64,000 nucleotides of DNA, taken from contig NZ_FOKC01000003.1 of assembly GCF_900112035.1 (NCBI RefSeq), positions 62,001 through 126,000 of the forward strand. Direction: 5' to 3'. The translations under genes and the position numbers were made by a program. This stretch comes from Nocardioides alpinus (GTDB taxonomy: Bacteria > Actinomycetota > Actinomycetes > Propionibacteriales > Nocardioidaceae). The notes below the pieces were generated by a model. The model was not told the origin of the DNA and did no database searches. It was given only the letters and a program-made list of their open reading frames with translations. Shown piece by piece: positions 32,371 to 35,848 of the stretch (within the stretch, counting starts at the first letter, position 1; the number at the start of each line of letters is the position of its first letter).

Positions 32371-34878
32371 CTAGACGACGATGTTCACGAGCTTCGGCGC
32401 GCGCACGATCACCTTGCGGACCGGCGCTCCGTCGATGGCGCGCTGCACGCCCTCGTCGGCCAGGGCGGCGGCCTCCAGGTCGGCCTCCGAGATGTCCGAG
32501 GCCACCTCCAGGCGCGCCCGGACCTTGCCCTTGACCTGGACGATCGCCGTGACGGTGTCCTCGACCAGCAGGGCCTCGTCGACCTCCGGCCAGCCGGCGC
32601 GTACGACGGTGGGCTGGTGGCCCAGCCGCTCCCACATCTCCTCGGCCGTGTAGGGCGCGACCAGCGACAGCAGGATCGCCACCGCCTCGGTCGCCTCACG
32701 CACTGCCGGGTCGGCGGGGCCGCACCCGGAGTCGATGGCCTTGCGGGTCGCGTTGACCAGCTCCATCACGCGGGCGACCATCACGTTGAAGCGGTAGGCC
32801 TCGACCAGCTCGGCCGCGTCGTGCACGGTCCGCGCCGTCGTACGCCGCAGCGCCAGGTCTCCGGTCGTGACGTCGGCGCCGGGCGACGACGTGACGTCAC
32901 CGGACAGCCGCCAGGCGCGCTGCAGGAAGCGCAGCGAACCCTCCGGCGACATGTTGGCCCAGTCGATGTCGTCCTCGGGCGGGCCCGCGAAGACCAGGGT
33001 CAGGCGCACCGCATCCACACCGAAGGCACCGAGCTGGTCCCCCAGGTTGACGCCGTTGCCCAGGGACTTGCTCATCTTCTTGCCCTGGTTGATCACGAAG
33101 CCCTGGTTGAGCTGGGCCGACCACGGCTCGCGGAAGTCCACCAGGCCCATGTCGTTGAGCACCTTGGTGAAGAACCGGCCGTAGAGCAGGTGCAGCACGG
33201 CGTGCTCGACACCGCCGACGTAGAGGTTGGACGGCATCCACGCGTTGACCTTCGCCGAGTCGAACGGCTGCGTGTCGTCGTGCGGCGAGCAGTAGCGGAA
33301 CATGTACCAGGACGAGTCGACGAAGGTGTCCATGGTGTCGGTGTCGCGGGTGGCCGGCCCGCCGCAGGTCGGGCAGGCGACGTTGACCCACTCGGCCGCC
33401 CCGCCCAGGGGCGAGGTGCCCTTGGGCTTCAGGTCGGCGCCGCGCAGCATCGGCAGCGTGACCGGCAGCTGGTCCTCGGGGACCGGGACCTCGCCGTCGA
33501 CCGGGCAGTGGATGATCGGGATCGGGGCACCCCAGTAGCGCTGGCGGCTCAGCAGCCAGTCGCGCAGCCGGAAGTTGACGGTGCCCTGGCCGGTCCTCTG
33601 CCCCTCCAGGAACTCGATCGTCGTGCTCTTGGCCTCCGCGACCGGCAGCCCGTTGATGTCCAGCGGGGCGTCCTCGCCCGGCGCGGGCGAGTTGATGGTC
33701 GCCCCCTCACCGCTGTAGGCCTCGCCGTCGAAGTCGTCCGGCACCTCGGTGGTGCGCACGATCGGCAGCCCCATCGCGGTGGCGAACTCCCAGTCACGCT
33801 GGTCGCCGCCGGGCACGCCCATCACAGCGCCGGTGCCGTAGTCGGCCAGGACGTAGTCGGTCGCCCAGACCGGGATCTGCTGCCCCGTCACGGGGTTGGT
33901 GGCGGTGACACCCAGGTCGACCCCGGTCTTGGGACGGTCGGTCGACAGGCGCTCGATCTCGGTCTCGCGACGGACCTCCTCGCGGTAGGTCTCGAAGGCC
34001 TCCCGCTGCGCGTCGGTGACCAGCTCGTCCGCCAGCGCGGCATCGACCGCGACCACCATGAAGGTCGTGCCGAAGATCGTGTCCGGCCGGGTCGTGTAGA
34101 CCGTGACCGGCTCGTCGCGCCCGTCGATGGCGAAGTCGACGTGCGCACCCTCGGACCGGCCGATCCAGTTGCGCTGCGCGGTGACGACGCGGGCCGGCCA
34201 CGTGTCCTCCAGCTCGTCCAGGCCGTCCAGCAGCTCCTGGGCGTAGTCGGTGATCTTGAAGTACCACTGGGTCAGCTCCTTCTTGGTCACCTCCGCCCCG
34301 CACCGCTCGCAGGCGCCGTTGACGACCTGCTCGTTGGCCAGCACCGTCCGGTCCTGCGGGCACCAGTTGACCGGGCTGTTCTTCCGGTAGGCCAGGCCGC
34401 GCTTGAAGAACTCCAGGAACAGCCACTGCGTCCAGCGGTAGTAGTCCGGGTCGGAGGTGTTGAAGGTCCGCGACCAGTCGAAGGACGCGGCGTACTTCTT
34501 GCACGACTCGATGGACTTGGCGATGTTGGCGCGCGTGTAGGTGTCGGGGTGCTCGTCGTTGCGGATCGCGGCGTTCTCCGCGGGCAGGCCGAAGGAGTCG
34601 AAGCCCATCGGGTTCAGCACCTCGTAGCCGCGCTGCCACCAGTAGCGCGCGACCACGTCGTGCAGCGCGAACACCTCGGCGTGACCCATGTGCAGGTCGC
34701 CGCTCGGGTAGGGGAACATCGTCAGCGCGTAGCGCTTCTCGCGCGGGCTGTCGTCGTCGGCCCTGAACGGGTCGAGGTCCTCCCACACGCGCTGCCACTT
34801 CGTCTCCGCGGCCGCGATGTCGTACGTCGCGCGCTCGGCCTCGTGGGCTCCGGTGTCGCTCGTGTCTGGGCTGCTCAT
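32371..34878 (-). CDS. leuS: Leucyl-tRNA synthetase
   Basis: 835 residues. Class I signature [11 protein letters not shown] with HMGH at 63-66; the KMSKS loop is [10 protein letters not shown] near residue 600; a CP1 editing domain lies between. A zinc-like CxxC pair (CPTCGGP) is present. It charges tRNA-Leu. Expression is probably attenuated: a short leader peptide with three consecutive Leu codons and an intrinsic terminator lie within 145 bp upstream. Confidence 0.98.
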
Positions 34879-34928
34879 GGCGTGTCCTCTTGTTGCTGGC
34901 GTGGTGCGTGCTGCTGGGTGTTGGCATG

Positions 34929-34951
34929 AAAAAACCCCTCACATGGAGGGG
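34929..34951 (-). terminator. Attenuator terminator upstream of leuS
   Basis: On the minus strand CCCCTC-CATGT-GAGGGG followed by six T. It lies 50 bp before the leuS ATG and 37 bp after the leader peptide stop, so read-through is needed for leuS expression from the leader promoter. Confidence 0.85.
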
Positions 34952-34987
34952 TAGCCGCGCGTCGGTCTCCGTGGGTGGGAGAGGCGA

Positions 34988-35023
34988 TCAACGCGGCTGA
35001 GGAAGAAGGAGGTCCTGGTGCAC
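34988..35023 (-). CDS. leuS leader peptide (Leu-Leu-Leu)
   Basis: A GTG-started 11-codon ORF encoding MHQDLLLPQPR. Codons 5-7 are CTC CTT CTT; CTT is rare in this high-GC genome. The GTG is 6 nt after the TATGAT -10, so the leader would be translated from a leaderless mRNA. Codons 9-11 (AGCCGCG) can pair with CGCGGCT just before the terminator stem. This is the layout of a leucine-responsive transcription attenuator. Inferred; the alternative antiterminator fold could not be resolved by eye. Confidence 0.75.
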   Translation of the reverse strand: MHQDLLLPQPR

Positions 35024-35029
35024 GTGTGC

Positions 35030-35037
35030 ATCATACT
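35030..35037. promoter_or_regulatory. Overlapping divergent -10 elements (leuS leader / nucleotidyltransferase)
   Basis: Minus strand TATGAT (35035-35030), 6 nt before the leader GTG. Plus strand CATACT (35032-35037), 7 nt before ATG 35045. The two share four base pairs, so the promoters should exclude each other. Confidence 0.6.
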
Positions 35038-35044
35038 CGCTTCC

Positions 35045-35848
35045 ATGGCTGCTGACCTGAGCAGGTACGACGACGTCCTTCGGCTGCTGGCCGCGCTCCC
35101 CCACCACGTCCCGGCGCTGCAGGTCGTCGTGGTGAACGGCTCGGCGGTCACCGGCGGGTGGGACGAGCACTCCGACCTCGACGTCGAGGCCTGGTGCAGC
35201 GGCGACGCCGCGACGACGTACGACGCCGTGCTGGCGCTGGTGCGCGCGGCGCTCGACGTCGACCACGTCTGGGAGCTGCCGGAGGCGACCTGGCCCACCG
35301 GTCGGCAGTGCTTCATCCACCTGCAGCCCGACGCCGCCGACCTGTCCCGGCCGACCCGACTGGTCGACGTGGTCGTCCAGACCACCCCCGAGCGGCTCAC
35401 CATGGACACCCGTCGCCACGGCACGCCGATGGTCCTGCACGACCCGAATGGCCTCCTCCTGCTCGAGGACGACGACGAGGCGCAGATGCAGGCCCAGCGG
35501 GACCAGGCCGTGCAGCAGGCGGTGGCGCGGCGCCAGACGGCGGCCTGGCTGGTGGAGCGGGCGATCGCGCGTGGGGACCAGGCCGAGGCGACCGCACTGC
35601 ACCTGCGCCTCGCGGTCGAGCCGCTGGTGCGGCTGCTGCGGATCCAGCACTGCCCCGCGCGCCACGACTTCGGGTTGCGCTACCTGCGCACCGACCTGCC
35701 GGCCGGGATGGCCGAGCGGGTGGAGGCACTGCTGCCCGGGCCGGCCGGCTCTGCTGCTCGGGCGACGTCGTCCCCGCACGAGCTGCTGACGGTCCGGTCG
35801 CGAGCAGCGTTCGCGTGGCAGGACGAGGTCCTGGCTCAGCTCACCTGA
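35045..35848 (+). CDS. Nucleotidyltransferase-fold protein
   Basis: 267 residues from ATG 35045. The polymerase-beta-type motif GS...DLD is present: G32 S33 in VVVNGSAVTGGWDEHSDLDVEAW with D44 and D46. A C-terminal helical region follows (ALHLRLAVEPLVRLLRIQHC). Fold relatives include aminoglycoside adenylyltransferases and MNT toxins/antitoxins; there is no HEPN partner beside it. Substrate unknown. Upstream in-frame codons (from 35018) lie over the leuS leader and were rejected. Confidence 0.78.
   Translation: MAADLSRYDDVLRLLAALPHHVPALQVVVVNGSAVTGGWDEHSDLDVEAWCSGDAATTYDAVLALVRAALDVDHVWELPEATWPTGRQCFIHLQPDAADLSRPTRLVDVVVQTTPERLTMDTRRHGTPMVLHDPNGLLLLEDDDEAQMQAQRDQAVQQAVARRQTAAWLVERAIARGDQAEATALHLRLAVEPLVRLLRIQHCPARHDFGLRYLRTDLPAGMAERVEALLPGPAGSAARATSSPHELLTVRSRAAFAWQDEVLAQLT

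Follow-up and report, generated by a model that had tools for sequence, protein, structure and literature searches.

In the 64,000-nucleotide stretch of Nocardioides alpinus DNA analyzed here (the window), the leucyl-tRNA synthetase (LeuRS) gene leuS is preceded by a short region that raises the question of whether, and by which arrangement of RNA, the gene is controlled by the supply of charged tRNA-Leu. The original prediction read this region as a leucine leader peptide gene followed by a transcription attenuator. Elements of this kind are already known from Streptomyces: a leuS attenuator was predicted in two Streptomyces in 2005 by Seliverstov et al. (PMC1262725), and RNA-seq data published in 2021 place the LeuL2 peptide of S. 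lividans, MRAVRLLLSEPR, on a leaderless transcript (PMC8079986). No description of a leuS attenuator outside Streptomyces was found in the literature searched, subscription papers being beyond the reach of that search. What is new is the resolved layout, the spread of the element and a shared spacing rule; beyond the Streptomyces work, a 5-nt spacing, a bias towards CTT codons and distinct stop-codon classes are described.

The leuS upstream region of N. alpinus

The features of the region are listed in Table 1. The leuS product scores 919 bits against TIGR00396 with its neighbours in frame, contains the Pfam editing, catalytic and anticodon domains, and has its best matches among the named records in Nocardioides (94-95% identity). 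The TATGAT hexamer and, 6 nt behind it, the GTG-initiated ORF with three Leu codons were found exactly where the original prediction had placed them on the minus strand. The 6-nt spacing implies a leaderless mRNA, with the start codon at or near +1. The terminator hairpin with its six T residues is also present, its predicted 6 bp becoming 7 bp when the closing A-T pair is counted, and the distance between the end of the T-run (34929) and the leuS ATG (34878) agrees with the predicted 50 nt or so.

Table 1. Features of the leuS leader region of N. alpinus.
Feature	Position	Strand	Remarks
-10 element TATGAT	35030..35035	-	from the sequence; 6 nt 5′ of GTG
Leader ORF MHQDLLLPQPR, 11 codons	34988..35023	-	GTG 35023-35021, stop TGA; probably leaderless; codons GTG CAC CAG GAC CTC CTT CTT CCT CAG CCG CGT TGA
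Control codons CTC CTT CTT	35003..35011	-	last CTT, 35005-35003, most conserved in relatives
A strand, (A)GCCGCGT	34991..34998	-	GCCGC core 5 nt past last CTT; overlaps ORF end
Segment AGCCGCG within A	34998-34992	-	pairs with CGCGGCT
A:B variable loop	34961..34990	-	first bases are the leader stop codon; RNAfold
B strand, GCGCGGC(T), GCGCGGCT	34953..34960	-	partner of A; abuts terminator
Segment CGCGGCT within B	34959-34953	-	pairs with AGCCGCG
Whole terminator, ACCCCTC-CATGT-GAGGGGT	34952-34934	-	7 bp including closing A-T
Terminator 5′ arm ACCCCTC	34946..34952	-	sequence, RNAfold, covariation
Terminator 3′ arm GAGGGGT	34934..34940	-	sequence, RNAfold, covariation
T-run TTTTTT	34929..34934	-	first T common to 3′ arm
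Tail behind T-run, starts CATGCC	34917..34928	-	conserved as NTG[TC]C
leuS, leucyl-tRNA synthetase, 835 aa, short type	32371..34878	-	ATG 34878

Between the Leu codons and the terminator RNAfold predicts a second hairpin, formed by strands A and B (hereafter A:B), whose loop contains an inner hairpin, TCTCC/GGAGA, in N. alpinus; A:B and the terminator are both predicted, each with a probability near 1. AGCCGCG had been proposed to pair with CGCGGCT at the base of the terminator. The pairing itself stands, with the strong compensatory changes in relatives that had been called for as a check, but its place does not: CGCGGCT adjoins the terminator and lies outside the terminator stem.

T-box leaders would also sense tRNA charging in front of an aminoacyl-tRNA synthetase gene. 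None was found in the window, neither in an Rfam scan of its whole length at gathering scores nor in a permissive scan of positions 34840-35120, which agrees with the original prediction; a tRNA located elsewhere is the only sequence in the window to reach a gathering score, and no family of Rfam 15 matches the leuS leader element at that score. Weak matches near the leader (Hrs1 with 21.3 bits against a gathering score of 56.4 and on the opposite strand, and HOTTIP_3) were dismissed as chance.

A divergent ORF on the plus strand (35045-35848) has its ATG 10 nt from the leuS -10 element, and the leuS -35 region would fall within it. The ORF has no Pfam match at E 0.001; its sequence GSAVTGGWDEHSDLDVE resembles a nucleotidyltransferase motif.

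Conservation of the leader

A total of 209 leuS upstream regions was assembled from 37 named records (L009-L045, the first 37 of 80 loci matched), 52 search loci and 120 fetched regions. According to a strict definition, a leader consisted of a TAnnnT-like hexamer located 6-7 nt before an ATG or GTG codon that starts an ORF of 7-20 aa containing LLL. Such leaders are present in 112 of the 207 actinomycete regions of sufficient length, as compared to 2 of 10,350 dinucleotide-shuffled versions of the regions and none of 5000 shuffles of the N. alpinus region, and no comparable leaderless LLL mini-ORF was found in the antisense regions. The leader is not due to chance. These shuffle counts, together with the covariation, the codon bias and the presence of such leaders, with fitting amino acids, in front of ilvB and cimA as described below, make it very improbable that the region is non-regulatory, that is, a constitutive promoter and a chance ORF with a terminator that trims read-through.

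A wider definition retained 131 leaders, and a terminator was found in 130 of them, two being doubtful (L041 and L095). The original prediction had named lack of conservation in close relatives as the result that would count against it. Leader and terminator are kept in 73 of 86 family regions and, among the named records, in 31 of 37, including 26 of the 28 Nocardioidaceae records, which may share species with the 86-region family set. Conservation and covariation thus support the reading of the leuS upstream region as a putative leucine leader peptide gene and attenuator. Elsewhere in the class, leader and terminator were found in 26 of 86 regions. Under the rules used, 79 of the 209 regions have no leader with terminator, 60 of them being class regions outside the family. 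Inspection by eye of the 13 family misses revealed an interrupted Leu run in an otherwise similar layout in five (L097, L170, L173, L183 and L187). By eye, no such leader stands in the family regions L108, L111, L116, L121, L125, L152 and L153. As the leader is missing from several family regions and from most of the others sampled, it may have been repeatedly lost or replaced.

The -10-like hexamer is spaced by 6 nt from the start codon in 98 leaders and by 7 nt in 32, a spacing that is partly selected because the -10 score entered the selection of leaders. At the other end of the element, 116 of the 130 leaders have 5-6 T among the 7 bases that follow the hairpin. The T-run is trailed by the motif NTG[TC]C in 94 of 118 leaders, and CCGG occurs within +5 to +24 behind it in 51 of 118, compared to 16 of 119 over the 19 nt beyond. 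This tail perhaps plays a role in polymerase pausing or release. A second start codon was considered for the NTG and rejected: relative to leuS it is spread over the three reading frames (26 in frame, 40 and 28 in the two other frames), and a stop is reached ahead of the leuS match in 35 of the 94 NTG[TC]C tails. By eye, similar tails trail many of the cimA and ilvB terminators.

Control codons

The last Leu codon of the leader is CTT in 109 of 130 leaders and the penultimate one CTC or CTT in 113; the last two read CTC CTT in 52 and CTT CTT in 36 of 119 unique leaders. In the leuS coding part of the same regions, CTT accounts for only 28 of 3091 Leu codons (0.9%), and for none of the 61 in the N. 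alpinus gene, which confirms the earlier description of CTT as a rare codon. CTT and CTC are expected to share one tRNA, with anticodon GAG. Given this expectation and the CTT bias, the leader seems tuned to the tRNA-Leu isoacceptor that reads CTT and CTC.

The frequency of CTC CTT and CTT CTT at these positions would also be expected if control were translational, with the CUCCUU Leu codons mimicking an anti-Shine-Dalgarno sequence and hiding a downstream ribosome site in the way proposed for the leuA LEU element, and the leuA leaders found with our model (see below) indeed have no clear terminator. Leaders encoding the Streptomyces peptide, however, carry CTT CTG CTT, nearly every leuS leader has a terminator, and pairing of the upstream RNA with the GAGGGG arm is at the level of shuffles. 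We therefore regard translational control as improbable.

Layout and covariation of the leader RNA

Anchoring on a motif placed 128 of the 130 leaders, of which 119 are unique; L045 and L175, whose hairpin by eye contains a mismatch, were left out. Strand A (GCCGC...) starts exactly 5 nt past the last Leu codon in 108 of the 119 unique leaders. The end of B lies 0-2 nt from the terminator in 111, overlaps it in 5 and is further off in 3. The distance from A to B ranges from 18 to 118 nt between leaders, and that from the end of the control codon to the terminator is 25-61 nt in 129 of 130. The five basal pairs, GCCGC:GCGGC, hardly vary (113 and 112 of 119, respectively), and the pairs beyond them show compensated variation.

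The position of the stop codon divides the leaders into two main classes. In the first (69 of 119), A lies inside the ORF (CTT nnn CAG CCG CGC TGA), with the stop at +7 of A; in the second, the ORF stops first (CTT ACC TAG CCGCG), with the stop at -2 of A in 42 leaders and at -3 in one. The stop lies 12-25 nt behind the start of A in the remaining seven. Since A forms part of the ORF in the first class but lies past the stop in the second, it is the RNA that is conserved and not the peptide. A conserved function of the peptide, considered for the C-terminal PR (QPR, EPR) of the first class, was accordingly ruled out: these residues are the reading of GCCGCG, which in the second class is found at and behind the stop at the same 5-nt distance.

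Covariation was analyzed on an alignment (A1) of 92 leaders, a diverse set picked from 116 regularly spaced candidates. For A:B plus terminator 97.1% of the cells are paired, as compared to 41-61% for slid control structures, and 8 of the 14 pairs are changed on both sides. Cells with two-sided changes number 97 versus 20 in shuffles, and none of 500 shuffles reached any of the five measures. Without guidance, RNAalifold recovered the A:B and terminator helices from the same alignment. In a separate count on the 119 unique leaders, the pairing of pairs 4 to 10 was reached by none of 500 shuffles, that of pair 3 by 26 and that of pair 11 by 419. These results show that a second hairpin, A:B, supported by covariation, is present between the Leu codons and the terminator. 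The leuS attenuator, until now a prediction for a few Streptomyces, thereby becomes an RNA element that is backed by covariation and occurs in many of the sampled actinomycetes.

Search for a competing antiterminator

The original prediction had left the antiterminator fold unresolved. In a classical attenuator of the trp type, a separate antiterminator would take the 5′ arm of the terminator when the ribosome stalls, and A:B would be the protector. Indeed, the leuS attenuator of Streptomyces was published as "classical", with antiterminator and terminator hairpins (PMC1262725), whereas the hairpin described here abuts the terminator and does not exclude it. Masking the footprint of a ribosome at the last Leu codon lowered the mean probability of A:B from 0.955 to 0.037 (130 leaders). 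That of the terminator was not lowered, being 0.971 when free and 0.976 when masked, which speaks against a classical attenuator.

The best duplexes of upstream RNA with the 5′ arm and loop of the terminator were weaker than those of shuffles (-7.2 versus -9.3 kcal/mol; 126 unique leaders), also when only RNA beyond the footprint was considered for the 5′ arm (-5.9 versus -6.8 kcal/mol), and those with the 3′ arm were equal to them (-9.0 versus -9.2 kcal/mol). In some species (e.g. L176 and L114) the A:B loop is too small for an extra strand. Nor do the bases of A:B and terminator share nucleotides beyond expectation: pairs -1 and -2 are formed in 39% and 49% of the leaders and in 43% and 55% of the shuffles, although one nucleotide may be common to both where terminator pairing begins with the G of CTG. 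As arm pairing is on average no better than in shuffles, no classical antiterminator was seen: a conserved pairing with a terminator arm that is exclusive of the terminator was not found in these means over 130 and 126 leaders.

Individual leaders do have alternatives. One within 3 kcal/mol of the terminator exists in 15 of 126, that of N. alpinus among them, and one stronger than the terminator in four (L095, L129, L149 and L258). For the terminator 5′ arm of N. alpinus, the best alternative has -7.1 kcal/mol, the terminator -9.5 and its own shuffles -5.8, and by eye the GGAG of its inner hairpin could pair with the CUCC of the terminator. Competing pairing therefore does not fit the leader set as a whole, although the N. 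alpinus leader taken alone would be compatible with it, and we consider a classical attenuator unlikely.

Proposed mechanism

The leader ORF, A:B and the terminator together very probably act as a switch that opens leuS to transcription during a shortage of charged tRNA-Leu. Fixed distances suggest a positional device. We consider it probable, judging from the conserved sequence features, that the leader is a ribosome-mediated transcription attenuator which sets the LeuRS level according to the supply of charged tRNA-Leu, and in which A:B abuts and blocks the terminator. The start of transcription, the stalling and the blocking by abutment are steps that we infer. The leader would be translated from the 5′ end of the leaderless mRNA. 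When charged tRNA-Leu is scarce, notably the isoacceptor for CUU and CUC, the ribosome would stall when CTT, the final Leu codon, occupies its A site. Counted from the P-site codon, A:B would then begin at +12, near the mRNA entry and the site of unwinding by the ribosome, and A:B could stand directly ahead of it. Toeprints are located at 15-16 nt in PMC6851288. The base of A:B would touch that of the terminator, with the ribosome on the other side; the terminator, which would have to close inside RNA polymerase, would be blocked and leuS would be read. When charged tRNA-Leu is plentiful, the ribosome would move onto A, one codon past CTT being enough to open A:B. In 112 of 119 leaders, those of the two main classes, a ribosome at the stop codon would cover A, and with A:B open the terminator would close and transcription stop. 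Such positional stalling is in line with a slow rare codon at the furthest point where the ribosome leaves A free. In the folding calculations A:B and the terminator are compatible neighbors, so that the case for inhibition by abutment is steric and does not come from computation.

Alternatively, A:B alone might abut and hinder the terminator with no need for a neighboring ribosome, translation serving only to open A:B. This agrees with the flush spacing of hairpin and terminator and with the fact that, in the two main classes, a ribosome that has reached the stop would mask A. It leaves unexplained, though, why the distance between the control codon and A is kept at 5 nt while the position of the stop shifts between the classes, and we regard it as possible but doubtful.

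Several observations argue against the positional mechanism that we prefer. An occlusion of 26 nt centered on the control codon, as drawn in PMC13236596, would at CTT cover the GCCGC core. Five of 119 leaders have their stop 22-25 nt past the point where A starts, and a ribosome there would cover only distal A. Offsets in ilvB leaders (see below) are looser than those of leuS. Changes of regulatory codons in the S. coelicolor ilvB leader were without effect, as reported in PMC1262725, and other arrangements have been proposed for ilvB, namely pairing antiterminators in Corynebacterium (PMC10272879) and exclusive structures in M. tuberculosis (PMC13236596). A precedent in favor is that control codons are required for induction of M. 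tuberculosis ilvB1 (PMC13236596).

Comparison with known attenuators

The Streptomyces leuS attenuator is alike in preceding the same gene and in having a leader with a Leu run, MRAVRLLLSEPR, on a leaderless transcript, followed by a hairpin and a terminator with a U-run. The same peptide as in S. lividans is encoded in five genomes of one family in our sample (f18, probably Streptomyces), and these leaders fit the anatomy and the covariance model described here. The LeuRS behind one of them (L261) is of a longer type, 39% identical to that of N. alpinus, which is of the short type.

The C. glutamicum ilvBNC attenuator resembles the leuS leader in two respects: its leader starts one nucleotide from the transcript start, with CUU and GUA as control codons, and the bases of its antiterminator and terminator hairpins are adjacent, an arrangement with mutational support (PMC11857589). 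These hairpins have a GCC trinucleotide in common, whereas in leuS leaders overlapping pairs are not above the level of shuffles. A related Corynebacterium motif is ilvB-II (PMC10272879). A precedent is offered by B. subtilis tlrB (yxjB), for which PMC6851288 identifies no overlapping antiterminator and has a stalled ribosome prevent completion of the terminator. In tlrB the ribosome is halted on the terminator base by an antibiotic; in the leuS leader, a gap of 25-61 nt is bridged by A:B. The LEU element of leuA shares with the leuS leader its Leu codons and a GCCGC-like hairpin strand close behind them, but differs in that it has no clear terminator and in that a pseudoknot has been proposed for it (PMC1262725).

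Occurrence ahead of other genes

A covariance model of the leader (R1) was used to search genomes drawn evenly from a larger group, so that the tallies given are samples; its E-values are rough. In the N. alpinus genome R1 gave one clear match, the leuS leader (E 3.7e-13), the next one having E 9.1. Matches with E <= 0.01 were found in 230 of 394 sampled class genomes, a figure that is not a count of leuS leaders since weaker matches were often leaders of cimA, ilvB or leuA. Among 20 such places that were fetched, 18 lie ahead of LeuRS genes and two (L307 and L308) ahead of citramalate synthase genes. Second or weaker matches were then read in 20 regions and 30 loci, the leaders of L374 and L391 being left unread. 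The gene behind the leader was identified by tblastn at 54 loci (these 50, L307, L308 and two of the N. alpinus genome) as cimA in 24, ilvB in 18, leuS in six, leuA in four and none of these in two. The query genes exceed the NCBIfam cut-offs for citramalate synthase, acetolactate synthase and 2-isopropylmalate synthase.

The cimA set comprises 25 leaders, of which 24 were parsed, among them one without cimA behind it (L356); L308 has a visible leader that the ORF finder missed. Each of the 24 parsed leaders has ATT as its final or penultimate Ile codon and leaves 0-2 nt between hairpin and terminator, and in 23 the hairpin begins 4-6 nt past the Ile codon. In the ilvB leaders the gap is 0-1 in 17 of 17, and the hairpin is offset by 3-8 nt from the last ATT, GTA or CTT. 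Apart from two, the leaders of cimA and ilvB came from searches with the leuS model, which favors the same layout. The two exceptions, located through their genes on contig C16 of N. alpinus, nevertheless share the layout of the leuS leader. The cimA leader, MSSTTIIIA (L362), reads ATC ATC ATT GCC TAG followed by hairpin and terminator, with offset 5 and gap 1, and the ilvB leader, MRTEILVRTRRVS (L363), contains ATT CTT GTA, with offset 7 and gap 1. R1 missed both at E 10, and the tally thus undercounts such paralogues. No description of a cimA leader in actinobacteria was found in the literature searched, which again did not extend to subscription papers.

These results suggest one design that reads the supply of Leu, Ile and Ile/Leu/Val before leuS, cimA and ilvB, respectively. 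We put forward tentatively, at less than even odds, that this actinobacterial design achieves antitermination without competing base pairing. A hairpin located 5 nt ahead of the last rare codon and flush with the terminator would bridge the linear gap, and a ribosome stalled 25-61 nt upstream would thus be brought against the terminator base and block it. The spacing rule can separate antitermination by pairing from antitermination by position. If true, the rule (rare codon, about 5 nt, hairpin with any loop, 0-2 nt, terminator) would allow such switches to be found and re-targeted to other amino acids; attenuators of this class are relevant to amino-acid production strains.

The four leuA leaders (L348, L358, L387 and L392) have Leu codons with a GCCGC-like hairpin strand a few nt behind, and no clear terminator was found in them. 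Their anatomy suggests that the LEU element may be akin to the leuS leader.

LeuRS types were judged only by identity to the N. alpinus protein. Among the 18 LeuRS places, seven are of the short type (54.7-66.7% identical) and 11 of a more distant, longer-aligning type (about 37-41% identical). Both types occur with a leader in one family (f10; L311 short, L262 and L312 long), and in one genome (G292) two leuS genes, one short and one long, are each preceded by a separate leader (L202 and L309, respectively). The presence of the same leader on both types indicates that the control element follows function rather than a single orthologue, and that it outlasts or precedes replacement of the gene.

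The leader MFTPRIII of L356, with a hairpin and terminator of the cimA type, precedes an ORF of 112 aa. By tblastn this ORF is not cimA, ilvB, leuA or leuS; its product resembles a small ACT-domain protein.
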